Of a DNA stretch of 20,365 bases, positions 4,335 to 20,365 are shown piece after piece (position 1 is the stretch's first letter; each line of letters starts with the position of its first letter). The stretch is from Microtetraspora glauca. Lineage in GTDB: Bacteria > Actinomycetota > Actinomycetes > Streptomycetales > Streptomycetaceae. Both the position numbers and the translations under genes were made by a program. Below the pieces are notes generated by a model. The model searched no databases and had not been told where the DNA came from. It saw nothing but the letters and a program-made list of their open reading frames with translations. The DNA lies in NCBI GenBank assembly GCA_000721275.1, contig JOFO01000077.1:1-20365 (forward strand), written 5' to 3'.

Positions 4335-4961
4335 CTAGTCGCGGGAGCGCTTCATCTCCCTGGTGCGGGTGGTGACGCCGCCGAACATCGCGAGGCCCTT
4401 GATGAGCACGCGCGGGGTGCCGGGCTTGTTGTGCTTGCGGGCGCCGCGCTTGCCGAAGACGCCGAAGAGCCCGAAGCCGCGGACCTCGACCTCGATGTCG
4501 TCGGGGAGGATGATCTCGGTGCCGCCGAAGAGGGCGACGGCCCGGATGACCGTCTCCTGCTCGGCGTACCGCGCCTCGCTGAGGTCGAGCCGGCCGCCGC
4601 CCCACATCGACCAGGCGGTGAAGCGCGGCGGGACCACCCACTCGCCCTGGCGCTCGAAGCCGCCGAACATGCCGAGGGCGAAGCGCGAGGTGGGCGCGCG
4701 GTCCACCACGAGGGCGTCGCGGGGGCCGATGTCGGGCAGGCCGCGGCCTGCGACCTCCAGTTCGGCGTGGGTCCTGGCCTGGTAGACCTGGGCGAGCCGG
4801 GCGTCGAGGTCGCCGATCTCCAGCCGGCCGGCGGCGACCGCCGCCCGTACCTTCTCGGCGACGCGGTTGCGGTCGTCGTCGGACGCCAGCAGGTCGCCCG
4901 CCTGCGGCTTCGTGGTGTCGATCTGCTTGTTCTGGTCGTGATGTCCGGAGTGTTCAGTCAT
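4335..4961 (-). CDS. DUF1707 / LiaF-like envelope-response protein
   Basis: A 208-residue protein with an N-terminal DUF1707 domain (about residues 25-77: ASDDDRNRVAEKVRAAVAAG, then GRLEIGDLDARL and HAELEV). The C-terminal half resembles the cell-wall-active-antibiotic response domain of LiaF proteins, with repeated Phe-Gly-Gly turns (LFGGTEI near 145 and MFGGV near 192). There are no membrane helices and no signal peptide. The molecular function of this actinobacterial family is not established; LiaF in Firmicutes senses envelope stress. The start codon overlaps the stop of the exporter gene (ATGA), so it is translationally coupled to export. That suggests, but does not prove, a role in self-protection against a product that perturbs the envelope. 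The stop is TAG at 4335-4337. Confidence 0.88.
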   Translation of the reverse strand: MTEHSGHHDQNKQIDTTKPQAGDLLASDDDRNRVAEKVRAAVAAGRLEIGDLDARLAQVYQARTHAELEVAGRGLPDIGPRDALVVDRAPTSRFALGMFGGFERQGEWVVPPRFTAWSMWGGGRLDLSEARYAEQETVIRAVALFGGTEIILPDDIEVEVRGFGLFGVFGKRGARKHNKPGTPRVLIKGLAMFGGVTTRTREMKRSRD

Positions 4962-6373
4962 GTCGTCAACCCTTCCACACCTGCTTCCGCACGGCGATCT
5001 TCCGCTTCTGAACTGTCCTCTTTCGAGCGGTCGTTGGCGGCGGTGTCAACCTTCCGCGCCGGGTCCGGCGTGCCGGGGGCAGCGATCTCCCGGACGTCGG
5101 CCAGGGGAACGTCGAGGACGCTCAGCCGGCCGCGGGCGACGTGCAGGGCGAGCGCGAGGGCGGCCATGCACACCGCCAGGACCAGGACGGCGGCGCGCAC
5201 GCCGAGCGCGTCGGCGAGGAAGCCGGCGCCGAGCGGGCCGGTCCACTGCACGGCCTGGATGCTGAACCGGACGACGGCGGACAGCCGGCCCAGGTACGCG
5301 TCGGGGACGAGCCGCACCTGGTACGACTCGATGACCACGTTCAGCGGAACCATGCTGGTCATGGCCACGAGCAGGACGAGACCGATCTGCCAGGGGCGCG
5401 GCACCCAGACGACGGCGGCGAAGCAGGCGACGAACAGCCAGGCGGCCACGTGCATGACCCGGCGGGCGCCCAGGCGCCGCATCAGGGCGGGGCCGGCGGT
5501 GGCGCCGAGCAGACCGCCGACGAGCGCGAGCGAGGTGGCGGTGCCGACGTCGGTGGGGCTGCCGCCGCGGTGCTGCACGAGGACCACGAAGAGCAGGGTG
5601 AAGCCCTCGGCGACGACGTTGAGCAGGGCGCCCCAGACGATGGTGAACACCAGGTACCGGCTGCCGCGGACCATCCGCAGGCCATCGGCCATCTCGGTGA
5701 ACAGGCCCGGCCGCGGGCCGTCGTCCGGCTGCCGGTCGGGGCCCAGCGGGCGGCGGATCAGCGCCGAGGCGAGCGTGACGAAGAGGAAGGACAGCGCGTC
5801 GAAGAGGAACGGCATCCAGCGGGACAGCGAGTAGAGCAGGCCGCCGAGCGGGGCGCCCAGCAGATGGGCGACCATGTCGCGGCCCATGCCCTGCGCGGTG
5901 GCCGTGGGCACCTGCTCCTTGGGGACGATGCGGCGCAGCGCGGACATCGACACGCCGCTGCGCAGGCCGGCCGCGAGGCCGCCGGCCAGGGCGAGCAGGT
6001 CGAGCAGGAGGACCGCCGGGTCGCCGCCGTACACGAGCAGGGCGACCGCGCCCATGGCGAGGGCCTGGCCGAGCGAGGCGGAGATCATCAGCGCGCGGCG
6101 GGAGACCCGGTCGGCGAGGACGCCGCCGACCGGCAGCATCACCAGGGTGCCGATCATGTGGCAGGCGGTGATGGCTCCGGCCTGGGCGACGGAGCCGGTG
6201 TGGGCGAGCATGAGGAGCGGGAAGGCGAGGGTGGAGACGCTGGTGCCGAGGGTGGACACGCCGTTGCCGGTCCACCAGTACATGTAGTCGAGATTGCGCC
6301 ACAGCGACGGCGGGCGGGCGTCGACCTCGTCGGTCCGCTCCTCGCCCTCGGAGCGCGGCTGCGCCGTGGCCAT
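4958..6373 (-). CDS. MFS exporter (MFS_3/EntS-like)
   Basis: A 471-residue major facilitator superfamily transporter with about 12 predicted membrane segments between residues 30 and 420. A loop 2-3 motif, GGVLADRVSRRALM (about 83-96), matches the MFS A-motif. The overall pattern resembles the EntS/MFS_3 efflux family that often exports siderophores or nonribosomal peptides. The C-terminal tail of roughly 50 residues is hydrophilic and acidic and probably cytoplasmic. The ATG at 6373 has GGAGG (6384-6388) ten bases upstream. It leads a run of six same-strand genes ending at position 2. The upstream region carries a near-perfect inverted repeat (6469-6493) and a leader hairpin (6432-6459). The likely role is export of the cluster product; the substrate cannot be read from the sequence. 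Confidence 0.92.
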   Translation of the reverse strand: MATAQPRSEGEERTDEVDARPPSLWRNLDYMYWWTGNGVSTLGTSVSTLAFPLLMLAHTGSVAQAGAITACHMIGTLVMLPVGGVLADRVSRRALMISASLGQALAMGAVALLVYGGDPAVLLLDLLALAGGLAAGLRSGVSMSALRRIVPKEQVPTATAQGMGRDMVAHLLGAPLGGLLYSLSRWMPFLFDALSFLFVTLASALIRRPLGPDRQPDDGPRPGLFTEMADGLRMVRGSRYLVFTIVWGALLNVVAEGFTLLFVVLVQHRGGSPTDVGTATSLALVGGLLGATAGPALMRRLGARRVMHVAAWLFVACFAAVVWVPRPWQIGLVLLVAMTSMVPLNVVIESYQVRLVPDAYLGRLSAVVRFSIQAVQWTGPLGAGFLADALGVRAAVLVLAVCMAALALALHVARGRLSVLDVPLADVREIAAPGTPDPARKVDTAANDRSKEDSSEAEDRRAEAGVEGLTT

Positions 6374-6431
6374 TCGCCCTCTTCCTCCCAGCGGTGCGGG
6401 GCCGATGCCGGCTCCCCGTTCCCCGCCGATG

Positions 6432-6459
6432 CTGGTCCACCCGGGGACGGGCGGACCAG
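6432..6459 (-). promoter_or_regulatory. Leader hairpin upstream of the exporter gene
   Basis: CTGGTCCACCCG (6432-6443) pairs with CGGGCGGACCAG (6448-6459) with one mismatch around a GGGA loop. It lies 59-86 bases before the exporter start. It may be an operator or a stabilising 5' UTR hairpin. Confidence 0.4.
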
Positions 6460-6468
6460 GCAGCGCAC

Positions 6469-6493
6469 CGGCAACTTCCGGCCGGAATTGCCG
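6469..6493. promoter_or_regulatory. Near-perfect 25-bp inverted repeat, candidate operator of the exporter operon
   Basis: CGGCAACTTCCG and GCCGGAATTGCCG form a palindrome with a single extra C (6475) in the left arm. It sits about 100 bases upstream of the exporter start and between two oppositely positioned gene ends. The left arm CGGCAACTTC is identical to the left arm of the inverted repeat between the ACP and TE genes (12358-12367). I did not find this 10-mer elsewhere in the window on reading it through. It is a good candidate for a regulator binding site. Confidence 0.5.
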
Positions 6494-6542
6494 CCGCGGC
6501 GCGGGGCGGGCCGGTGGTGCGGCGCGGGTGGGGCTGGCCCGG

Positions 6543-6601
6543 CCCGGGCGGGCGGGGCCGGCCGGGCCGGGAGGCCGGGCCGGCCGGGCCGCCCGCCCGG
6601 G
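6543..6601 (-). terminator. Strong GC hairpin terminator after the LuxR-type gene
   Basis: CCCGGGCGGGCGG (6543-6555) is perfectly complementary to CCGCCCGCCCGGG (6589-6601). The inner parts (CCGGCC repeats) extend the stem with a small mismatch. It begins four bases beyond the regulator's stop codon. There is no T-tract, which is usual for Streptomyces terminators. It should isolate the regulator from the exporter operon. Confidence 0.65.
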
Positions 6602-6605
6602 GTGG

Positions 6606-7592
6606 TCAGAGCCAGCCGCGTTCCGCCGCCTTGTAGCCCATCTCGAAGCGGCTCTCCGCGCCCAGGCGGGCGGAGAGGTCGGCCACGACGCGGCGGACGG
6701 TGCGGAGGGAGACGCCCAGGCGGCGGCTGACCGCGCCGTCGGTGAGTCCGCGGGAGAGGAGCCGTACCAGCTCGCGCTCCTGCGGGCTGAGCCCGTGCTC
6801 GTCGGTGCCGGTGTCGGTGCCGAGCGGGACGCCGCCCTCCCACACGTGCTCGAACAGCGCCTGGAGCGCGGCCAGCACCCCCGGCGAGGTGATCTCCATG
6901 ACCGCGTACCACGGGTCGCCGGGGTCCACCGGCAGCAGCACCCGGCTGCGGTCGACGACCAGCATGTGCACCGGCAGCGAGGGGACGGTGCGCACCGGGC
7001 AGCCGAGTTCCGCGCAGCGGGTGGCGCGGCGGAGTGCGGCGGCGTCGGTGCGGATGCCGTCGGTGTAGACGATGCGGTTGGCGACCTCCCGGTGGTGGAC
7101 CTGCAGGGTGAGTGCCGCGGCGAGTTCCAGCCACGCGGTGTTGCGGACGCCGCCGGGGACGAAGGCGAGCCATTCGGCCTCCACGTCGCCGGCGAGCTGC
7201 CAGAGCCGGTCGGTGACGGCCTCGCGGCCGGACACGTAGACGCCGCCCGCCTCGATGCCGCCGGGGTGCTGCTCGGCGAACTGCGCCAGCAGGTCGAGGA
7301 CGGTGGCCCGGTCCTCCTCGAACTCCCTGATCCGGTCCTCGATCCCGGAGATCTGCCGGAGCAGCAGCGACTTCAGGCCGAGGTTGGGGTCGACGAGCCG
7401 GCTGCGGCCCTCGCGCTGGGGCAGCAGGAGGTCCATCTTCTCCAGCCGCTCGATGGCGGAGCGCACCTCGCCGGGCGGCAGGGCGAGCTCCTCCGCGAGG
7501 TCGTCGACGCTCTTCGAACTCCCCGCTATCAGGCCCCGGTACACGGCCGCGGCCAGGTGGTCGAACCCTAACCGTCCTAGTCTTCCGAGCAT
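6606..7592 (-). CDS. LuxR-family transcriptional regulator with N-terminal TrmB-like winged helix
   Basis: A 328-residue regulator. The C-terminus (about 267-325: LSPQERELVRLLSRGLTDGA, then RRLGVSLRTVRRVVADL) is a LuxR/GerE helix-turn-helix. Residues about 10-70 look like a winged helix of the TrmB type (VDDLAEELALPPGEVRSAIERL). Between them is a sensor-like region of unknown ligand. There is no AAA ATPase, so it is not a large LAL regulator, and no response-regulator receiver. Codon 8 is TTA (7569-7571), which makes translation dependent on the bldA tRNA if the Streptomyces rule holds. It is divergent from the PPTase gene and followed by a strong hairpin, so it is probably monocistronic. The ATG at 7592 follows GGGGGA about ten bases upstream. 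It is a plausible pathway-specific regulator and a candidate binder of the inverted repeats at 6469-6493 and 12359-12400. Confidence 0.9.
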   Translation of the reverse strand: MLGRLGRLGFDHLAAAVYRGLIAGSSKSVDDLAEELALPPGEVRSAIERLEKMDLLLPQREGRSRLVDPNLGLKSLLLRQISGIEDRIREFEEDRATVLDLLAQFAEQHPGGIEAGGVYVSGREAVTDRLWQLAGDVEAEWLAFVPGGVRNTAWLELAAALTLQVHHREVANRIVYTDGIRTDAAALRRATRCAELGCPVRTVPSLPVHMLVVDRSRVLLPVDPGDPWYAVMEITSPGVLAALQALFEHVWEGGVPLGTDTGTDEHGLSPQERELVRLLSRGLTDGAVSRRLGVSLRTVRRVVADLSARLGAESRFEMGYKAAERGWL

Positions 7593-8447: not shown

Positions 8448-8801
8448 CTCCACGTCAGTTCACCTGGTCCTCATCCGGGCGTCCCCTCAAGGGTTTATGA
8501 ATCAGTGGCACCAAGCTGCCAGCCAGCACTTCCTGCCACAGCCCCGTCCGCACTTCCCGGTTACGCTGATCCCGATCGGCCGCCTCCCGCTTGCAACCGT
8601 CGTCTTTCACCGTCCCCACGGATTAAACCTTCGGGAAAAGGCATATACCAACGGGAATTCGGGACCATCCACGTCCCCGTTCCCGAGGATCGGCCCGGCA
8701 CAGGCGGCCGCGACACCGACATGTCGTCGCCGGAACAACACCGCCGATCCACCTGCGCGTTGCAACGCATTCCGCACACGATCCGGAGGGTGTTCTTCCC
8801 C
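8448..8801. other. 354-base gap between PPTase and XRE/NB-ARC regulator
   Basis: This is the least GC-rich stretch of the window. It holds an interrupted small hairpin over the PPTase stop (CTGAC 8444-8448 with GTCAG 8454-8458, plus TGAA/TTCA outside). An AT-richer patch follows at 8620-8660 (ATTAAACC, CATATACC) that could contain the regulator's promoter, although I cannot place a convincing -35/-10 pair. GGAGGG at 8785-8790 is the ribosome binding site of the next gene. The reading frame of the downstream gene stays open through this gap, with an ATG at 8721 and one at 8505. Neither has a ribosome binding site and the codon use there is poor, so I see no gene here. Confidence 0.5.
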
Positions 8802-10181
8802 ATGCAGACCCCGAACGAAACGATCCCGTTCCGACCCACGGACATCCACAGCCTGAGAGACTTTCTGCTCCACCAACGCAGAATGTCGGGCTGGACCCAG
8901 GAAGAACTCTCCGAGCGGTCCGGCGTCAGCGTCCGGACCATCCGCAATCTGGAGACCGGCAGCAACGTCAATCCGCGCCGCAGCTCCGTGTCGCTGCTGC
9001 TCAGCGCGTTCGGAGCGACCGCCTCCGCGCTCGACAAGGGCGCCCCGGCGGAGAGCGGCGGCTGGCCGGCGCCCGCCCCGCACCCCGAGGCCGAGCGGCC
9101 GGCGGCCGACTCCGGCCCCCCGCCGTGGTACGGGCCCCGCCCGCTGCCGGCCCCGCTGGTGGGCCGCCAGGCCGACCTGCGGCACCTCCTCGGCGCCGTG
9201 CAGCGCGGCCGGCTCGTCGTGCTGACCGGGCCCGGCGGCGTCGGCAAGACCCGGCTGGCGCTCGCGGCGGCGGCCCGGCTGCTGCCGCTCTTCCAGGACG
9301 GGGTGGCCGTCGCCGAACTGCACGACTGCCCGCCCGAGCACATCGACCCGGTCCGGGCCGCCAGCGAACTCCACCGCATCACGGGCGACCTCGTCCGTTC
9401 CGACATCTCTACGCGCGAAGACGCCGGAATGCGCAGGCAGTTGCTGGTCCTCGACAGCGCCGAGCACGTCGTCCAGCAGACCGCCCGGGTGGTCCGCGGC
9501 CTGCTCGACGCCCACCCGGGGCTGCACGTGCTGGTCACCTCGCGCCGCACCATGGCGGTGAGCGCCGCGGAGACCTGGGAGGTCGAGCCGCTGGACACCG
9601 GACCGCGGGCGCGCGGCGAGGCCGCCGTGCCCAGCGCGGTCGAGCTCTTCCTGCGGCGGGTGCAGGCCAGCCTGCCGACGCTCGACCTGAGCAGCCGGCT
9701 GCCGCTCGTCCGGGAGCTGTGCGGGCTGCTCGACGGGCTCCCGCTGGCCATCGAATTAGCGGCGGGCCGGCTGCGGTCGCTGCCGCTCACCTCGCTCCTG
9801 GACGACGACACGCTGTTCCACCTGCTGACCCGGGTCGACGCGGGCGACCTGTCCCGCCACCGCACCCTGTCGAGCAGCGTCCGCTGGAGCTACGAGCTGC
9901 TGCCCGCCCCCCACCGGGACCTGCTGCACCGGCTGGCAGCGCTGCCCCGGACGTTCTCCCTGGACGACGCGCTGACGATCCCCGGGCCCGGCGACGCGGC
10001 CGGCGCCCCGCACGTCGCCCATCTGCTCGCCGAGCTGGCCGACGCCTCCCTGGTGCAGATCCACCGGGAACGCCAGTACCACTACCGGGTCCACTCGCTG
10101 GTCCGGCACTTCGTCACCGAGGTCGCCGGAGCCGCCCGAGCGCGGCCCGCGGACGACAGCGCCTGGTGCGCCGTCGGCTGA
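8802..10181 (+). CDS. XRE-type HTH / NB-ARC ATPase regulator (STAND class, no TPR tail)
   Basis: A 459-residue probable transcriptional regulator. Residues about 16-75 are a Cro/C1-type helix-turn-helix (MSGWTQEELSERSGVSVRTI). A Pro-rich linker follows, then an NB-ARC/AAA-like ATPase: P-loop GPGGVGKT (143-150), Walker B LLVLDSAEH (214-222), LVTSRR (244-249), GLPLAIELAAGRL (312-324) and the winged-helix segment HRTLSSSVRWSYELL (353-367). The ATPase resembles that of AfsR-type regulators, but the protein stops after the winged helix with no tetratricopeptide sensor and no BTAD domain. ATG 8802 is preceded by GGAGGG eleven bases upstream; starts further upstream lack such a site. Codon 319 is TTA (9756-9758). 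It is convergent with the dehydrogenase gene. It is probably pathway-specific; its ligand and target are unknown. Confidence 0.88.
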   Translation: MQTPNETIPFRPTDIHSLRDFLLHQRRMSGWTQEELSERSGVSVRTIRNLETGSNVNPRRSSVSLLLSAFGATASALDKGAPAESGGWPAPAPHPEAERPAADSGPPPWYGPRPLPAPLVGRQADLRHLLGAVQRGRLVVLTGPGGVGKTRLALAAAARLLPLFQDGVAVAELHDCPPEHIDPVRAASELHRITGDLVRSDISTREDAGMRRQLLVLDSAEHVVQQTARVVRGLLDAHPGLHVLVTSRRTMAVSAAETWEVEPLDTGPRARGEAAVPSAVELFLRRVQASLPTLDLSSRLPLVRELCGLLDGLPLAIELAAGRLRSLPLTSLLDDDTLFHLLTRVDAGDLSRHRTLSSSVRWSYELLPAPHRDLLHRLAALPRTFSLDDALTIPGPGDAAGAPHVAHLLAELADASLVQIHRERQYHYRVHSLVRHFVTEVAGAARARPADDSAWCAVG

Positions 10182-10218: not shown

Positions 10219-11958
10219 TCAGGCGCCGACCGCCTCCTTGACGGTCCGGAGCGAGAAGTGCTCCGGGCCGTCGAGCGAGGCCAGGATCCGCTCCTCCAGC
10301 CACGGCAGGAACGTCTCGTCGAGCCCGGCCGACGGGTCGAGCCGCTGGAGCAGCCGCTGGAGCACCAGCACCAGCCAGCCGGTACCGCCCTCGGCGGACC
10401 GCTCGGCACCGAACGAGTACAGCCACGTGTACAGGCAGGACGCCGCCGCGTGGTGCACGCAGTGCTCCGCCGCCAGGTCCTGCCCCTCGGTGGACACCGC
10501 GTCGAACGCGTCCGTGTCCACCCGGGCGTAGAAGGCCCGGCGGCGCTCGTCGAAGGCGTCCAGCACCTTCACCAGCGCCGCGGCCTCGGCCGCCGGCAGC
10601 TCGCCGTCCGCGATCCGGCGCGCCTCGGCGACCGCCGGACCCCAGCCGCGGGTGATCTCGTCCTCGGCGGCGTTGGTGAGCCGCAGCGCCCGGCCCGACG
10701 GCTCCCAGCGCGGCGCCTCCTCCGACCAGTCGAACAGGCCGCGCAGCACCTCCTCGCCCTTCCGGGCGGGCGTCTCCGCCACCCGGGCCACGGCCCGCAG
10801 CTGCGCCGCGATGCCGTGCAGGTTGACGTGGGTGGTGCCCTCGAAGATGCTCGCGATCGCGTGGTCGCGCTGGAGCTTCTGGAACGCGCCGTGCGCCACG
10901 CCCTCGCGCAGGTAGCTGCGGGCGCCCAGCACCCGGGCCATCTCCTGGACGACCTCCTCGCCGAGGGTCGGCACCAGGTACTTGACCACCGACGACCAGA
11001 GGCTGAGCCGGGACGGCGCGACCGTGAGCGACCGGGCCACCGGCAGCGCGGTGCACTCGGCGATCAGCAGGTCGAGGAAGCCGCCCAGCAGGTGCCGCCG
11101 GATGACGGGGATCGCGTAGATCGGCTCGCCGTACAGGATCCGGTCCCGGGAGTGCCGCAGACCGATCCGGAGCACCGAGTCCATGGTGCCGATCGACAGG
11201 GCGCCGATGGCGGTCCGGGTGATCTGGAGGACCTGCAGGACCTCCGGCAGGCCCGCGCCGGCCCGGCCGAGCAGCGCCGAGGACGGCACCCGGGTGCCGC
11301 GGAAGGTGAGGCCGCTGAGGTCGTGGCCGCGCAGGCCGACCGTGCGGACGAACGGGTGGTTGTCCCAGGTGACCTCCTCCTGCTGCTTCTTGTCGAGCAG
11401 CAGCAGGGAGGAGCCGGCGCCCTCGACCTTGGCGTAGACGGTGACGAAGCGGCCCCGGGTGGCGTTGCCGACGGGCCACTTCTCGCCGGTCAGCACGTAG
11501 TCGTCGCCGTCGACGGCGGCGACGGTCTCGTTGGTGCCGAGGTCGCTGCCGTGGTCGGGCTCGGAGACCGCGAAGCAGGCGAGGTCGCCGGAGAGGAAGC
11601 CCTCGGCGACGCGGCGGCGCTGCTCGTCGGTGCCCCACAGCCACACCGGGTTGATGCCGAGGACCGCCGAGCCGAACATCACGGCGACGGTGACGTTGCG
11701 GCGGGACAGCGAGCGGGTCAGCAGGAACAGCTGCTCCAGGTTGCGGAGCTTGCCGCCGAACGGCTCGGGCACCAGGTGGTCGGCGAAGCCCCACGCGCGG
11801 ACCAGGTCGACGGCGCCGGGCGGCACCGCGCCCTCCTCCTCGTGCGCGACGGTCTCGGCGTAGCTGAACGGCCCGCTCGGGGCCTCCGGGTCGCCGAGCG
11901 CCCGGTCCAGGTCCTCGGCGAGCGCGTAGGCCGGGCGGTCGAAGGCGCGCCCGGTCAC
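10219..11958 (-). CDS. Acyl-CoA (acyl-ACP) dehydrogenase, long form
   Basis: A 579-residue FAD-dependent acyl dehydrogenase. The FAD/substrate signature CFAVSEPDHGSD is at 128-139. IFEGTTHVNL (371-380) carries Glu373, equivalent to the catalytic base of medium-chain acyl-CoA dehydrogenases. It has about 190 residues beyond the normal end of a 380-residue dehydrogenase, so it belongs to the long type and is unlike the short prolyl-PCP oxidases (PltE, CloN3). It starts with GTG at 11958, overlapping the TGA of the ACP gene (GTGA), so the substrate is probably an acyl chain on that ACP. The pairing recalls LipB plus the discrete ACP of friulimicin-type lipopeptide clusters, where the dehydrogenase puts a double bond in the fatty-acid tail. 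That parallel is from memory and unaligned. Confidence 0.92.
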   Translation of the reverse strand: MTGRAFDRPAYALAEDLDRALGDPEAPSGPFSYAETVAHEEEGAVPPGAVDLVRAWGFADHLVPEPFGGKLRNLEQLFLLTRSLSRRNVTVAVMFGSAVLGINPVWLWGTDEQRRRVAEGFLSGDLACFAVSEPDHGSDLGTNETVAAVDGDDYVLTGEKWPVGNATRGRFVTVYAKVEGAGSSLLLLDKKQQEEVTWDNHPFVRTVGLRGHDLSGLTFRGTRVPSSALLGRAGAGLPEVLQVLQITRTAIGALSIGTMDSVLRIGLRHSRDRILYGEPIYAIPVIRRHLLGGFLDLLIAECTALPVARSLTVAPSRLSLWSSVVKYLVPTLGEEVVQEMARVLGARSYLREGVAHGAFQKLQRDHAIASIFEGTTHVNLHGIAAQLRAVARVAETPARKGEEVLRGLFDWSEEAPRWEPSGRALRLTNAAEDEITRGWGPAVAEARRIADGELPAAEAAALVKVLDAFDERRRAFYARVDTDAFDAVSTEGQDLAAEHCVHHAAASCLYTWLYSFGAERSAEGGTGWLVLVLQRLLQRLDPSAGLDETFLPWLEERILASLDGPEHFSLRTVKEAVGA

Positions 11959-12299
11959 GCGAGGGGGCTTTCGACGCCGTAGCGGGCGAAGACGTCCTCG
12001 ACGACCTCGGCCTCGGCCAGCTCGGCCTGCCCGGCGGCCACCTCGGAGCGGACCAGCTCGATCACGTCCCCGACGTTCTGGAGCCGCATGGCCTCCTCGG
12101 GGTTGAGCGACCGGAGGCCGTACAGCTCCTCCAGGTTGTAGCCGAGCTCGGCGAGCACGAGGGAGTGGAAGCCGAGGTCGCCGATCAGCCGCAGTTCGGG
12201 GCCGACCGTGTCGACCTTGCGGGGGGCGATCAGTTGGACCATCCCGCTCACGATGGCGGAGACGGTGTCGGTGCCGACGGCGGCAGGAGTGTTCGTCAT
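11955..12299 (-). CDS. Discrete acyl carrier protein with GFHSL motif
   Basis: A 114-residue acyl carrier protein. The attachment site reads DLGFHSLVLAEL: Ser46 is present, but the usual preceding Asp is His45. The carrier fold covers about residues 10-90, followed by an acidic Glu/Ala-rich tail. The true start is ATG 12299; further upstream the frame stays open but runs into the divergent TE gene's promoter. It is translationally coupled to the acyl dehydrogenase (GTGA overlap), so it most likely carries the fatty acyl chain that enzyme oxidises and then hands to the first NRPS condensation domain. No acyl-AMP ligase for loading it is in the window, apart from the amino-acid-type ligase at 2-1504. 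No strong ribosome binding site is visible. Confidence 0.88.
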   Translation of the reverse strand: MTNTPAAVGTDTVSAIVSGMVQLIAPRKVDTVGPELRLIGDLGFHSLVLAELGYNLEELYGLRSLNPEEAMRLQNVGDVIELVRSEVAAGQAELAEAEVVEDVFARYGVESPLA

Positions 12300-12358
12300 G
12301 CGGCTCACGCTAGGCACGGCGGTCCGCCGCCCCCAGGCATCCCGCCCGGCAGCCACGC

Positions 12359-12400
12359 GGCAACTTCGCGCGCCCGCGCGGGACATGCGGCGAAGTTGCC
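12359..12400. promoter_or_regulatory. Perfect 11-bp inverted repeat in the ACP/TE divergent promoter region, candidate operator
   Basis: GGCAACTTCGC (12359-12369) and GCGAAGTTGCC (12390-12400) are perfect inverted copies separated by 20 bases. Centre-to-centre spacing is 31 bp, about three helical turns, so both arms face the same side of the DNA. The site lies in the 148-base gap between the divergent ACP and thioesterase genes. With the flanking C, the left arm matches the CGGCAACTTC of the exporter-promoter palindrome at 6469-6478. This looks like a shared regulator site covering both divergent transcripts. Confidence 0.55.
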
Positions 12401-12447
12401 CCCGAGCTGCCTGGCCGACGGGCGCCCCGGCGCCCAGTCTTGCGCCC

Positions 12448-13248
12448 ATGACGACCACTCACCACACGGCGGCGGGTCCCCTCGCCGCGTCCTCCTGGAT
12501 CAGCGCCCGGTACGCCCGCGGGGTGCCGCGGCTGCGGCTGCTGTGCCTGCCGCACGCGGGCGGCGGCGTCGGCGTCTTCCACGCGTGGCGGGCCCATCTG
12601 CCGGACGGCATCGAGCTGGCGCCGGTGGAGCTGCCGGGCCGCGGCTCGCGGATCGACGAGCCGATGCCGGCGACGATGGACGCGCTGGTGGACGCGCTGT
12701 TCGACGGCGTGCGCGGGGAGCTCGACGTGCCGTACGCGCTGTTCGGGCACAGCTTCGGGGCGATCCTCGGGTACGAGCTGACCCGCAGGATCGAGCGGGA
12801 GGCGGCGCGCGCCGGCGGGCCGCGCACGCCGGGCGCGCTGCTGGTGTCGGGGTCGCGGGCGCCGCACGTGCCGCTGGGCCGCGGCTCGGTGGCGTCCGGC
12901 GACGACGCCGGGCTGATCGACTGGCTGAGCGGCACCGGGGGGCTGCCGCCGGAGCTGCTGGAGTTCCCGGAGTTCCTGCGGGACCTGCTGCGGGCGGTGC
13001 GCGGCGACATGGCGTTCGCCGAGGCGTACCTGGCGGCGGGGCCGGAGCCGGTCGGCTGCCCGCTGTCGGCGTTCGCGGGGGCCGGCGACACGGTGTCCAC
13101 GGTGGCGCAGGTCGAGCCGTGGGAGCGGTACACGACGGGCCGGCACGGGCTGCGGGTGCTGCCCGGCGGGCACTACTTCCCGCAGAGCCACCCGGCGGAG
13201 ACGGTCGCCGCGGTGGTCGCGGAGCTGGCGGCGGTGTCGGCGGTGTGA
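12448..13248 (+). CDS. Type II thioesterase (external editing TE)
   Basis: A 266-residue alpha/beta hydrolase of the NRPS/PKS type II thioesterase family. The triad can be read as Ser102 in GHSFG (100-104), Asp214 in GAGDT and His242 in GGHYF. The N-terminal LLCLPHAGGG (31-40) is the family signature. It hydrolyses wrong or stalled acyl groups from carrier proteins to restore the assembly line. It is divergent from the ACP gene and convergent with the P450 gene. ATG 12448 gives the usual N-terminal length but has no visible ribosome binding site. A GC hairpin (GGGCGCC 12420-12426 and GGCGCCC 12429-12435) lies just upstream. An in-frame ATG at 12385 is possible but would place one arm of the operator-like repeat inside the gene. 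Translation may therefore be leaderless or structure-controlled. Confidence 0.93.
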   Translation: MTTTHHTAAGPLAASSWISARYARGVPRLRLLCLPHAGGGVGVFHAWRAHLPDGIELAPVELPGRGSRIDEPMPATMDALVDALFDGVRGELDVPYALFGHSFGAILGYELTRRIEREAARAGGPRTPGALLVSGSRAPHVPLGRGSVASGDDAGLIDWLSGTGGLPPELLEFPEFLRDLLRAVRGDMAFAEAYLAAGPEPVGCPLSAFAGAGDTVSTVAQVEPWERYTTGRHGLRVLPGGHYFPQSHPAETVAAVVAELAAVSAV

Positions 13249-16739: not shown

Positions 16740-16784
16740 CCGCCGCCGGGGCGGGAGCGCGTACGGCTCCCGCCCCGGCGGCGG
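16740..16784 (-). terminator. Perfect 19-bp hairpin terminator directly after the NRPS stop
   Basis: The arms 16740-16758 and 16766-16784 are perfectly complementary (cores CCGGGGCGGGAGC and GCTCCCGCCCCGG) with a 7-nt loop. The right arm ends one base before the NRPS stop codon (16786-16788). No T-run follows on the minus strand. It is the strongest hairpin in the window and should end the NRPS transcript, which leaves the downstream hydroxylase operon needing its own promoter. Confidence 0.7.
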
Positions 16785-16785
16785 A

Positions 16786-19700
16786 TCACACCGGGTCGCT
16801 CCACTCCTCGGCGAACTCGGCCAGCTCGTCCTGGTCGAGGGTGACGAGCGGCTCGTCGGAGCCGTCGCCGTCGCCTCCGGCGGACGCGCCGCCCGCCGGG
16901 TCGATCTCCTTCACGGCGGTGGCCAGCGCGGCGACCGTCTTGTGCGTGAAGACGTCCTTCGGGGTCATGTCCAGGCCCTCGGCGCGCGCCAGGGTGACCA
17001 GCTTGATCGAGACGATGGAGTCGCCGCCGAGGTCGAAGAAGCCGTCGTCGATGCCGACGCTCCCGGTGCCGAGCGCCTTGGCGAACAGCGCGCACAGCTG
17101 CTCCTCGCGGGCGTTGCGCGGCGCCCGGCTGTCCGCGGCGGCGGCGAAGTCCGGCGCGGGCAGCGCGTCCCGGTCGAGCTTGCCGCCGGGGGTGACGGGC
17201 AGCCGGTCGAGGACGACGACGGCGGCGGGCACCATGTACGGCGGCAAGGCGGCGGCGACCCGGTCGCGCAGGGCGGCCGGCTCGGGCCGCAGGTCGCCGG
17301 CCGGGGACACGTACCCGACGAGGCGGCGCACGCCCGGCTGGTCCTCGCGGACGACGACGGCCGCGCCGGCGACGGCGGCGTCCTCGGCGAGCACGGCCTC
17401 GATCTCGCCGGGCTCGATGCGGAAGCCGCGCACCTTGACCTGGCGGTCGGCCCGGCCGAGGTATTCGAGGGTGCCGTCGGGGCGGCGGCGCGCCAGGTCG
17501 CCGGAGCGGTACATGCGCGTCCCGGGCGGGCCGTACGGGTCGGCGACGAAGCGCTCGCCGGTCTGCCCGGGCCGGCGCAGATAGCCGAGGGCGAGTCCTT
17601 CGCCGGCCAGGTACAGCTCGCCGGGAGCGCCGACCGGCACCGGCCGCAGCGCGCTGTCGAGGAGGTGGACGCGGGCGCCGGCGACGGCCTCGCCGAGCGG
17701 CGGGTGGGTCCGGCCGGCGAGCGGGCCGCTCATGGTGGCCATGACGGTCGCCTCGGTCGGGCCGTACGCGTTGACCATCCGCCGCCCCGCGGACCAGCGC
17801 TCGACGAGGTCGGGCGTGCACGCCTCGCCGCCGACGACGAGGGTGACGCCGGGCGGCAATGCGCCCTCGGGCAGCACCGCGAGGGACGACGGCGGCAGCA
17901 GCAGCGTGGTGACGCCGTGCCGGGCGACGGTGGCGGCCAGCGACGGCCCGGGCAGCAGGTCGTCGGCGGGGGCGGCGACCACGCTCGCGCCGTTGAGCAG
18001 CGCGGTCGCCAGCTCCCACACGGAGGCGTCGAAGCTCGGCGAGGCGAACATCAGCACCCGCTCGTCGTCGCGCAGGGCGAGGCCGGTGCGCTGCTGGGCG
18101 GCGAGCGCGGCGATGCCGGTGTGCGGGACGAGGACGCCCTTGGGGCGGCCGGTCGAACCGGAGGTGTAGATGAGGTACGCGGCGGAGCCGGCGGTCAGCG
18201 GCGCGGACCGCTCGTCGTCGCGCAGCGGCTCGCCGGACAGGCCGGTGGTGAGCTCCAGCGCCAGGCCGAACGGGTCGTCGGGGCCGGTGAGCGCGCCGCC
18301 GTCGCCGTCGAGGCTGAGGGTGCGTCCCGCGCCGGCGCCGGCCGCGGCGGTGACGGCGCTGCCCTCGGCGGTGGTGAGCACCAGGTCGGGCCGGGCGTCG
18401 TCGATGATGTACCGCAACCGCTCCGGCGGGTAGCCGAGGTCGAGCGGCAGGTACGCGGCTCCGCTCTTGAGGACCGCCAGGACGGCGAGGACCGAGCGGG
18501 CGGACCGGGGCAGGGCGACCGCGACGACGTTGCCGGGTCCGACGCCGCGGGCGGCGAGGACGCGGGCGAGCCGGTTGGCCTCGGCGTCCAGGGTGCCGTA
18601 GGTGACCTCGTGCGGGCCGTCGTACACGGCGACGGCGTCGGGGCGGGCGGCGGCGTGGGCCTCGAAGAGCGCCGGGAAGGTGGCCCGGGGCGGGGTGGCG
18701 GCGCCGGCACGGACCGGCTCGGCGCGCTCGGCGTCGGTCCGCAGGTCGATCCGGCCGACGGGGACCGCCGGGTCCTGGGCGAAGGCGTCCAGGACGGCGC
18801 GGACCCGGTGCAGCACGGCCGCCGCCTCGGCGGCGGTGAACAGGTCGGCGCGGTAGGTCAGTTCGAGGCTGAGCCGCCCGGACGGGACCACGACCAGGCT
18901 GAACGGGTAGTGCGAGGCGCCGGGCGCGGGGGTGTCGTCCACGCCGATCCGCAGGCCGGGCACCTGGGCCTGGACGGCGTCGCCGTCGACGGGCGTGTTC
19001 TCGAAGCCGACGACGGTGTCGAAGAGTTCGCCGATGCCGGCGGCGCGCTGCACCTCGGCGAGACCCAGGTGGTGGAAGGGCCGCAGCCCGGCCTGGGTCT
19101 CCTGGAGGGCGGCCAGGGCGTCGCGGAGCGGGCGGCCCGGGTCGAGCCGGACGCGGACGGCGACGGTGTTCATGAGCAGGCCGACCATGTCCTCGGCGCC
19201 GGGCAGCTCGGGCGGGCGGCCCGCCGTGGTGGCGCCGAAGACGACGTCGTCGCGGCCGAGGAACTGCCCGAGGGCGATCGCCCAGGCGCCCTGGACCAGC
19301 GTGTTCAGGGTCAGTCCGGCCTGGCGGGCGGTGTCGGTCAGCCGCTCGGTGGCCTCCGCGTCGAGGGCGGTCGCGACGAGCTCGGGCACGGTGGCCGTGG
19401 CGGCGTCGGAGCCGGGCGCGACCAGGGCGGGCTCGTCCAGGCCGGCCAGTTCGGCGCGCCACGCCGCGACGGCGGCCTGCTCGTCCTGGGCGGCGAGCCA
19501 GCGCAGGAAGCGGTCGAACGGGACGGGCGGGGTGCCGGTGCCGGTGCCGCCGCGGGCGTACGAGGCGAACAGGTCGCGGAAGACGAGCGGCAGCGACCAG
19601 CCGTCGAGCAGCAGGTGGTGGTGGGTCACCAGCAGCAGGTGCTCGTCGGCGGCGAGCTTGACGAGCGCGACCCGCAGCAGCGGCGGCCGGTCGGTCGCGA

Positions 19701-20365
19701 AGCGCCGTACCCGGTCCTCGTCGAGGAGTTCGGCGAGCCGCGCCTCCCGCTCGGCCGGCGCCAGGCCGGACAGGTCCCGCTCCTCCCACGGCACCCGCAC
19801 GTCGTCGTGGACGACCTGCACGGAGCGGCCGGAGCCGAGCGTGACGAACGAGGTGCGCAGCGCCGGGTGGCGGGCGAGGAGCGCGTCGAAGGCGTCGCGG
19901 AGCACGGCCGGCGCGAGGGTGCCGGTGAGCCGCAGGGGCCGCTGGGTGACGTAGACGTCGAGGGCGTCCGTGGCGAGCAGGGCGTGGAAGTGCATGCCCT
20001 GCTGGAGCGGGGTGAGCGTCCAGACGTCGGCGACGGGGCCGGCGAGGGCGTCGAGTTCGGCGCGCTCGGCGTCGTCCAGGTCGACCAGCGGGCCGGCGGC
20101 CGTGAGGTCGGCGCCCGCGTCCTGCGGCACGTCGCGGGCGACCTCGGCCAGGGCGGCGATGGTCTTGTGGACGAAGACGTCCTTCGCGCTCAGGACCAGA
20201 CCCGCGCGGTGAGCACGGGCGGCGAGGCGCATCGAGACGATGGAGTCGCCCCCGAGGTCGAAGAAACTGTCGTCGACACCGACCCGGTCCCGGCCCAGCA
20301 CCTCCGCGAACACCTCGTGCAGGACCCGCTCGCGCTCCGTGGACGGCGCCCGGTACTCCCGCACC
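16786..20365 (-). CDS. NRPS, 3' part: PCP-C-A(Leu?)-PCP, no thioesterase
   Basis: A partial gene whose 5' end lies beyond the window; 1192 residues are visible. Domains, with visible numbering, are as follows. PCP occupies about 5-78 (LGGDSIVSM, Ser41). The condensation domain occupies about 110-540 (LTPLQQGMHFH, HHHLLLDGWS at 248-257 as HHxxxDG). The adenylation domain occupies about 560-1070 (LIYTSGSTGRPKG, NAYGPTE, YRSGD, VTPGGKLD). The second PCP occupies about 1085-1155 (LGGDSIVSI, Ser1116). The A-domain code read by alignment to GrsA is DAWLVGAVMK, one change from the classical leucine code DAWLYGAVMK, so Leu is predicted. The protein ends EFAEEWSDPV without TE, epimerase or reductase domains. 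Such a tail usually hands the chain to a condensation domain on another protein. No MbtH-like gene is in the window. A 19-bp hairpin follows the stop. Confidence 0.95.
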   Translation of the reverse strand, partial: VREYRAPSTERERVLHEVFAEVLGRDRVGVDDSFFDLGGDSIVSMRLAARAHRAGLVLSAKDVFVHKTIAALAEVARDVPQDAGADLTAAGPLVDLDDAERAELDALAGPVADVWTLTPLQQGMHFHALLATDALDVYVTQRPLRLTGTLAPAVLRDAFDALLARHPALRTSFVTLGSGRSVQVVHDDVRVPWEERDLSGLAPAEREARLAELLDEDRVRRFATDRPPLLRVALVKLAADEHLLLVTHHHLLLDGWSLPLVFRDLFASYARGGTGTGTPPVPFDRFLRWLAAQDEQAAVAAWRAELAGLDEPALVAPGSDAATATVPELVATALDAEATERLTDTARQAGLTLNTLVQGAWAIALGQFLGRDDVVFGATTAGRPPELPGAEDMVGLLMNTVAVRVRLDPGRPLRDALAALQETQAGLRPFHHLGLAEVQRAAGIGELFDTVVGFENTPVDGDAVQAQVPGLRIGVDDTPAPGASHYPFSLVVVPSGRLSLELTYRADLFTAAEAAAVLHRVRAVLDAFAQDPAVPVGRIDLRTDAERAEPVRAGAATPPRATFPALFEAHAAARPDAVAVYDGPHEVTYGTLDAEANRLARVLAARGVGPGNVVAVALPRSARSVLAVLAVLKSGAAYLPLDLGYPPERLRYIIDDARPDLVLTTAEGSAVTAAAGAGAGRTLSLDGDGGALTGPDDPFGLALELTTGLSGEPLRDDERSAPLTAGSAAYLIYTSGSTGRPKGVLVPHTGIAALAAQQRTGLALRDDERVLMFASPSFDASVWELATALLNGASVVAAPADDLLPGPSLAATVARHGVTTLLLPPSSLAVLPEGALPPGVTLVVGGEACTPDLVERWSAGRRMVNAYGPTEATVMATMSGPLAGRTHPPLGEAVAGARVHLLDSALRPVPVGAPGELYLAGEGLALGYLRRPGQTGERFVADPYGPPGTRMYRSGDLARRRPDGTLEYLGRADRQVKVRGFRIEPGEIEAVLAEDAAVAGAAVVVREDQPGVRRLVGYVSPAGDLRPEPAALRDRVAAALPPYMVPAAVVVLDRLPVTPGGKLDRDALPAPDFAAAADSRAPRNAREEQLCALFAKALGTGSVGIDDGFFDLGGDSIVSIKLVTLARAEGLDMTPKDVFTHKTVAALATAVKEIDPAGGASAGGDGDGSDEPLVTLDQDELAEFAEEWSDPV

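Follow-up and report, generated by a model that had tools for sequence, protein, structure and literature searches.

Which sequence controls the divergent ACP and thioesterase (TE) genes of this locus, and which protein reads it? The genes belong to a Streptomyces peptide-making, antibiotic-type cluster, for whose product a literature search gave no name. A search of a plasmid collection matched the TE part only, among the 20 of 30 records listed. The window (the whole stretch of 20,365 nucleotides analyzed) contains the features collected in Table 1. A preliminary description of it had taken an inverted repeat in the ACP/TE gap for a shared, cluster-specific binding site of either a LuxR-type or an XRE/NB-ARC regulator. 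We read the gap as two divergent, back-to-back copies of an operator for a cluster-specific activator, with the XRE-STAND protein as the cognate activator, and put the probability of this reading at about 0.85.

Table 1. Positions of genes, operator copies and promoter elements in the window
Feature	Position	Strand	Remarks
MFS exporter	4958-6373	-	Target gene
Candidate -10-like element of exporter, CAGCAT	6429-6434	-	Assigned from spacing
Operator facing MFS exporter, GTTGCCGGTGCGCTGCCTGG	6456-6475	-	PWM 29.7
GerE/LuxR-type regulator	6606-7592	-	Second HTH-like N-terminus; not a conserved partner
XRE-HTH + NB-ARC (STAND) protein	8802-10181	+	459 aa; proposed cognate activator
Acyl-CoA-dehydrogenase-like (ACAD) protein	10219-11958	-	Downstream of ACP
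ACP	11955-12299	-	Target gene
Candidate -10-like element of ACP, TAGCGT	12307-12312	-	Of the TAnnKT kind; ATG at 12299
Third half-site of ACP promoter, ATGCCTGGG	12332-12340	-	12 bp past operator
Operator facing ACP-ACAD genes, GTTGCCGCGTGGCTGCCGGG	12345-12364	-	PWM 26.1; intergenic
Left arm of inverted repeat, GGCAACTTCGC	12359-12369	+	Window sequence
Right arm of inverted repeat, GCGAAGTTGCC	12390-12400	+	Window sequence
Operator facing TE, GTTGCCCCCGAGCTGCCTGG	12395-12414	+	PWM 20.1; intergenic; 33 bp before TE ATG
Candidate -10-like element of TE, CAGTCT	12435-12440	+	Assigned from spacing; ATG at 12448
TE	12448-13248	+	Target gene
NRPS gene	16786-20364	-

The inverted repeat between the ACP and TE genes

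The inverted repeat is present as first described: its 11-bp arms match perfectly, with centers 31 bp apart. The 10-mer CGGCAACTTC, said to recur before the exporter and nowhere else, indeed has only two exact matches, at 6469-6478 and 12358-12367 of the window; its version in the right arm, GGGCAACTTC, carries one mismatch. We counted perfect 11-bp inverted repeats with a loop of at most 40 in the window and in 60 simulated windows. Repeats of any GC content begin at 19 positions, where the simulations average 2.0; GC-rich inverted repeats are thus common in the window. The repeat in the ACP/TE gap is the sole one of the 19 with arms of at most 66% GC, a class of which the simulations yielded 0.017 per window on average and never more than 1.

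Two other inverted repeats were observed beside genes. Very GC-rich stacked repeats at 6536-6602, directly past the LuxR stop codon (13-bp perfect arms at 6543-6555 and 6589-6601), are possibly a terminator-like hairpin. A GC-rich perfect inverted repeat at 16740-16784, just beyond the NRPS stop, has arms of up to 19 bp and is also possibly terminator-like.

Scanning the 7.47-Mb genome, as had been proposed, finds the 9-mer GGCAACTTC opposite its own complement within 30 bp once. The bare 9-mer is scattered through the genome, with 77 matches against 76 for a reversed control, so it has no special status alone and was rejected as a signal. The 20-bp operator described below is not scattered in this way.

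Perfect 11-bp arms are improbable by chance, as would suit an operator formed by the inverted repeat itself, with a dimer bound to its two-fold symmetric arms. However, the GCGAA portion of the arms is unconserved at orthologous operators, the distance between back-to-back copies varies from 34 to 58 bp, and many genes have a single copy; we regard such an operator as extremely improbable. Symmetry is not kept in orthologous gaps. The GAA/TTC extension is absent from the ACP and exporter operators of relatives, so the palindromes are local to the window, and the inverted repeat appears because two operator copies point away from each other. The view of the palindrome as the binding site thus gives way to a conserved direct repeat with an 11-bp period. 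A near-palindrome, CGGCAACTTCCGGCCGGAATTGCCG (6469-6493), overlaps the exporter operator and is absent from the exporter operators of relatives.

A 20-bp direct repeat and its distribution

Judged from sequence comparison, what is conserved is a direct-repeat operator of 20 bp, RTTGCC-N6-YTGCC-KGG, with two TTGCC half-sites 11 bp apart and oriented towards the target gene. In each copy in the window, GGCAGC lies exactly 11 bp upstream of GGCAACTTC and so extends the arm. This parent form, GGCAGC-N5-GGCAACTTC, has three exact matches in 7,474,694 bases, all in the window (6459-6478, 12348-12367 and, in reverse, 12392-12411), and one more place in the genome matches with one mismatch. On the opposite strand it reads GAAGTTGCC-N5-GCTGCC(K)GG towards the exporter, ACP and TE genes. 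Apart from the three operators, no site in the window scores at least 11, and the XRE and LuxR genes have no site of their own; the XRE protein therefore probably stands above the biosynthetic operons.

Related clusters were located through acyl-CoA-dehydrogenase homologues in five other Streptomyces, and also encode ACP, P450, SDR, TauD-like and XRE genes. In all five relatives but G005, the ACP promoter has GTTGCC-N6-TTGCCGGG and, after it, a third TTGCC(TGGG); in four relatives this third half-site of the ACP promoter reads TTGCCTGGG. In G001 and G004, ATTGCCGGTGCACTGCCTGG is present in the exporter promoter. Operators in the related clusters precede ACP, exporter, AurF-like and NRPS genes, and are weaker before most TE genes (scores of 12.8-17.5 in four genomes). 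AurF-facing sites are weak in the window's own genome (12.7-13.9) and strong in G003, G164, G222 and G365. At divergent promoters the operator again comes in back-to-back pairs, most of them spaced by 50-58 bp and a few by 34-35 bp. Comparing the same gaps across clusters, another suggestion of the preliminary description, thus upholds the 20-bp operator but not the palindromic extensions.

Across six whole genomes RTTGCCN6YTGCCKGG has 25 matches, 21 of them in this cluster or its fragments (G000, 4/6; G001, 3/4; G002, 6/7; G003, 4/4; G004, 3/3; G005, 1/1); the reversed pattern has 8. One G000 match, C41:51250, is on another contig, ahead of the start of an NRPS-type gene; this is probably the remainder of this cluster. 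Across 392 genomes of the genus, a stricter motif has 12 matches, which fall in 8 genomes, and its reversed control has 3. Six of these 8 genomes have a strict site within a related cluster: the window's own, G062, G164, G222, G365 and G240. The two strict sites of G108 lie in a region that encodes YcaO and does not resemble this cluster, and the single one of G378 lies beside unrelated genes; no gene of the window, not even XRE or LuxR, was found in the 40 kb around the latter. In G108 (L082/L098) each strict site is paired with a weaker site facing the opposite way. The strong isolated site in G378 (L075, 18769-18788) is 11 bp upstream of a script-called gene. No pattern match was found at L013, the locus of a sixth acyl-CoA-dehydrogenase relative, from Rathayibacter (41% identity), nor in the locus stretch of L015, whose whole genome has one.

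A matrix built from 34 sites (32 distinct) chosen by the fixed pattern reads AGTTGCCGG-tnnn-cTGCCTGGC, which contains direct heptamer repeats with a period of about 11 bp. We also trained a held-out matrix on the first six genomes only and applied it to ten other loci, six chosen by the strict motif and four by the XRE protein alone. Of its 35 matches scoring at least 15, 34 were intergenic, in DNA of which 82% was called coding by our own codon-usage script, not a standard annotator (in the G086 and G006 stretches the calls reach only about half of the DNA). All 8 matches in the four XRE-chosen loci were intergenic. ACP sites fall inside a P450 call in G001 and G004 because the script's call overruns the ACP start. 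In non-cluster DNA the held-out matrix had 1 match in 115 kb with the stretch holding the G378 site left out; with that stretch there was 1 match scoring at least 17.5 in 198 kb. The proposal of a shared, cluster-specific operator is therefore strongly supported, both by the related clusters and by the whole-genome scans.

Candidate regulators of the operator

Co-occurrence across loci and genomes points to the XRE-HTH and NB-ARC protein, which is very probably the operator's regulator. Among 13 operator loci found without using this protein (G000-G005, G062, G164, G222, G365, G240, G108 and G378), an XRE homologue is present in 12 and a LuxR homologue in 6. Without G378, but with four further loci selected through the XRE protein, the set comes to 16 loci, with homologue counts of 16 for XRE, 8 for PadR, 7 for LuxR and 1 for SARP; the last three were rejected as conserved binders on these counts. 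We searched 201 (43 + 78 + 80) of the 392 motif-scanned genomes for XRE homologues at E ≤ 1e-50. Of the 8 strict-motif genomes 7 have one, as do 4 of the remaining 193 (Fisher p = 1.1e-9, or 1.8e-8 when G000 is excluded). Matches to the ATPase part only were dropped (a second copy in G222, 3.2e-41; G093, 1.1e-41; G078, 4.9e-41 and 8.5e-41).

The four other genomes, found by the protein alone, are G006 (38% identity), G086 (43%), G120 (53%) and G150 (47%). All have nearby PWM sites scoring at least 17, those in G086 being weak (17.3-17.6). For G150, where sites were predicted in advance, four intergenic sites scoring 23.4-26.2 lie within 10 kb of the XRE gene; this is a single case, the sole homologue in its batch of 80 genomes. 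The most telling case, as far as sequence comparison goes, is G108, which combines unlike chemistry with the same operator, its XRE homologue and the strict sites being about 19 kb apart. Its YcaO-encoding region is perhaps a second, unlike pathway on the same operator. An XRE homologue is absent from the G378 genome at E ≤ 1e-40. In G005 the XRE match comes only in three pieces (L058, about 8600-9850), and the cluster still has one strong operator; the homologue is perhaps broken or misassembled. The co-occurrence may also be compatible with a co-inherited factor encoded elsewhere.

The LuxR-type protein is encoded in the cluster, beside the exporter, and homologues at 7 of the 16 operator loci would suit a role in binding. 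Another LuxR protein, MilO, binds 11-bp direct repeats according to the accessible part of the source (PMC11784345). However, the operator sequence is kept at the 9 loci that have no LuxR homologue, and the GerE protein of G108 differs, matching over the HTH only. A LuxR-protein system with TGTCN3CGGT repeats likewise has tandem repeats near a biosynthetic promoter, but these differ in sequence from ours and have 2-bp spacers. Binding by the LuxR-type protein is very unlikely, and of the two regulators first put forward only the XRE/NB-ARC protein is favored by co-occurrence. A DUF1707/LiaF-like gene (4335-4961) adjoins the exporter and has no homologue in 14 other operator loci at E 1e-8.

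The layout itself brings to mind a SARP (BTAD) activator encoded elsewhere, for which CGGCARC with 4-bp spacers would be the site. In the available text on PimR, its operator is three CGGCAAG heptamers with 4-bp spacers and the same 11-bp period, and this heptamer is common to PimR, SanG and PolR (PMC3367932; PMC5930380). Like these SARP and SARP-LAL operators, ours has a GGCAA core, an 11-bp period and 2-3 repeats, and is intergenic, beside biosynthetic or regulatory genes. It differs in its heptamer, CGGCARC, and in half-sites that end about 20 bp from the -10 element; in the linked regulator the HTH is of XRE type and no BTAD was reported. SARPs are encoded somewhere in all six genomes compared, but a BTAD-containing SARP lies in the cluster region at only 1 of 16 loci, that of G003, where two are encoded about 13-17 kb from the ACP gene. 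The nearest BTAD in G001 is 65 kb off, and the cluster contigs of G000, G002, G004 and G005 have no BTAD match (the G000 and G002 clusters being split over contigs, so that a linked gene may lie on a missing piece there). A tblastn search with the two G003 SARPs found no match in the other 15 of the 16 loci, and the XRE linkage holds even in the unlike G108 cluster. We therefore consider a SARP unlikely as the binder.

Proposed mechanism and significance

The XRE-STAND protein has an N-terminal XRE/Cro HTH (PF01381/PF13560), in which the stretch S-x-R-T-I-R-N is invariant across 44 aligned proteins; G006 has V for I. An NB-ARC/STAND ATPase with a GPGGVGKT-type P-loop is also present, and the Pfam AAA_16 match is below its cut-off. 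No C-terminal repeat sensor was detected: the protein ends at 459 aa and matches no Pfam repeat family. An AlphaFold2 model (mean pLDDT 84) has a helical N-terminal domain, a low-confidence linker and an NB-ARC-like ATPase body. Its best fold matches in the PDB are NLR resistosomes, Apaf-1 and CED-4, with the maltose-system entry 8bob at rank 39; a PDB sequence search gave no match at E 0.01.

MalT-type STAND regulators combine an ATPase with a DNA-binding domain and act as oligomeric activators on tandem sites. The XRE-STAND protein is predicted to pair the same two kinds of domain, but its HTH is N-terminal and of XRE type, Pfam reports no repeat sensor, and it is 459 aa long. WhiJ9 of S. 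venezuelae is described in the accessible text as an XRE-HTH activator on direct repeats (PMC10294661). The proposed system resembles it in an XRE HTH on intergenic direct repeats, here predicted from sequence, but the three WhiJ9 repeats read CGXXCTCAAC. We know of no NB-ARC domain in WhiJ9.

Promoter geometry was counted at 49 sites scoring at least 19, of which 40 are of the two-repeat kind; 1 of 50 such sites was left out where the locus ended. Of the 40 two-repeat sites, 38 have an A..[AC]T that begins 21-22 bp further on, and 31 have the stricter A..AT there, which none of the 40 has in six offset windows elsewhere; many counted sites are orthologous promoters, so these counts are not independent. 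TAnnKT is found at 32-33 bp in 8 of 9 three-half-site cases.

With the operator, its conservation and placement, the fixed -10 spacing and the linkage to the XRE-STAND gene computed here, we infer that the XRE-STAND protein binds these sites, oligomerizes and activates rather than represses. TTGCC half-sites with an 11-bp period would lie one helical turn apart on a single face of the helix, an arrangement that suits side-by-side protomers. One XRE-HTH protomer could occupy each half-site, and the fused NB-ARC ATPase, in its ATP-bound form, would hold the protomers together; in the ACP copy the array would be extended by the third half-site. The operator ends about 20 bp before the -10-like hexamer, in the usual place of the -35 box; recruitment of RNA polymerase by the complex would serve promoters that lack a clear -35 box. 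A fixed -10 distance and an array at the -35 place suit activation by polymerase recruitment.

The same operator and regulator could instead repress until released by the product. An exporter is among the targets, and a promoter-proximal site could stand in the way of polymerase as well. However, the site ends upstream of the -10 element at a fixed spacing and with no clear -35 box, like activator sites, and STAND regulators such as MalT are activators. SARPs of this layout activate too, according to the part of the source available (PMC10972967). Repression seems improbable.

No description of the DNA site of an XRE-NB-ARC regulator was found in the literature, including the available part of PMC12224297 and with incomplete journal coverage; the class is little studied. 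A search for TTGCCTGG with Streptomyces gave no relevant literature by title or abstract among the matches listed. For NRPS clusters with no known product match, the analysis offers a sequence-defined operator, a named candidate regulator gene and predicted promoters. More speculatively, and with clear doubt on our part, sensor-less XRE-NB-ARC proteins might be widespread cluster activators that form apoptosome-like strings on tandem TTGCC boxes, having reached the GGCAA heptamer code of SARP-LAL proteins by convergence or by a swap of DNA-binding domains; the operator might then read out a regulon of silent clusters of unlike chemistry. The pair adds a case of an XRE-type HTH seemingly working on SARP-like tandem repeats, and may be of use to switch on silent clusters.
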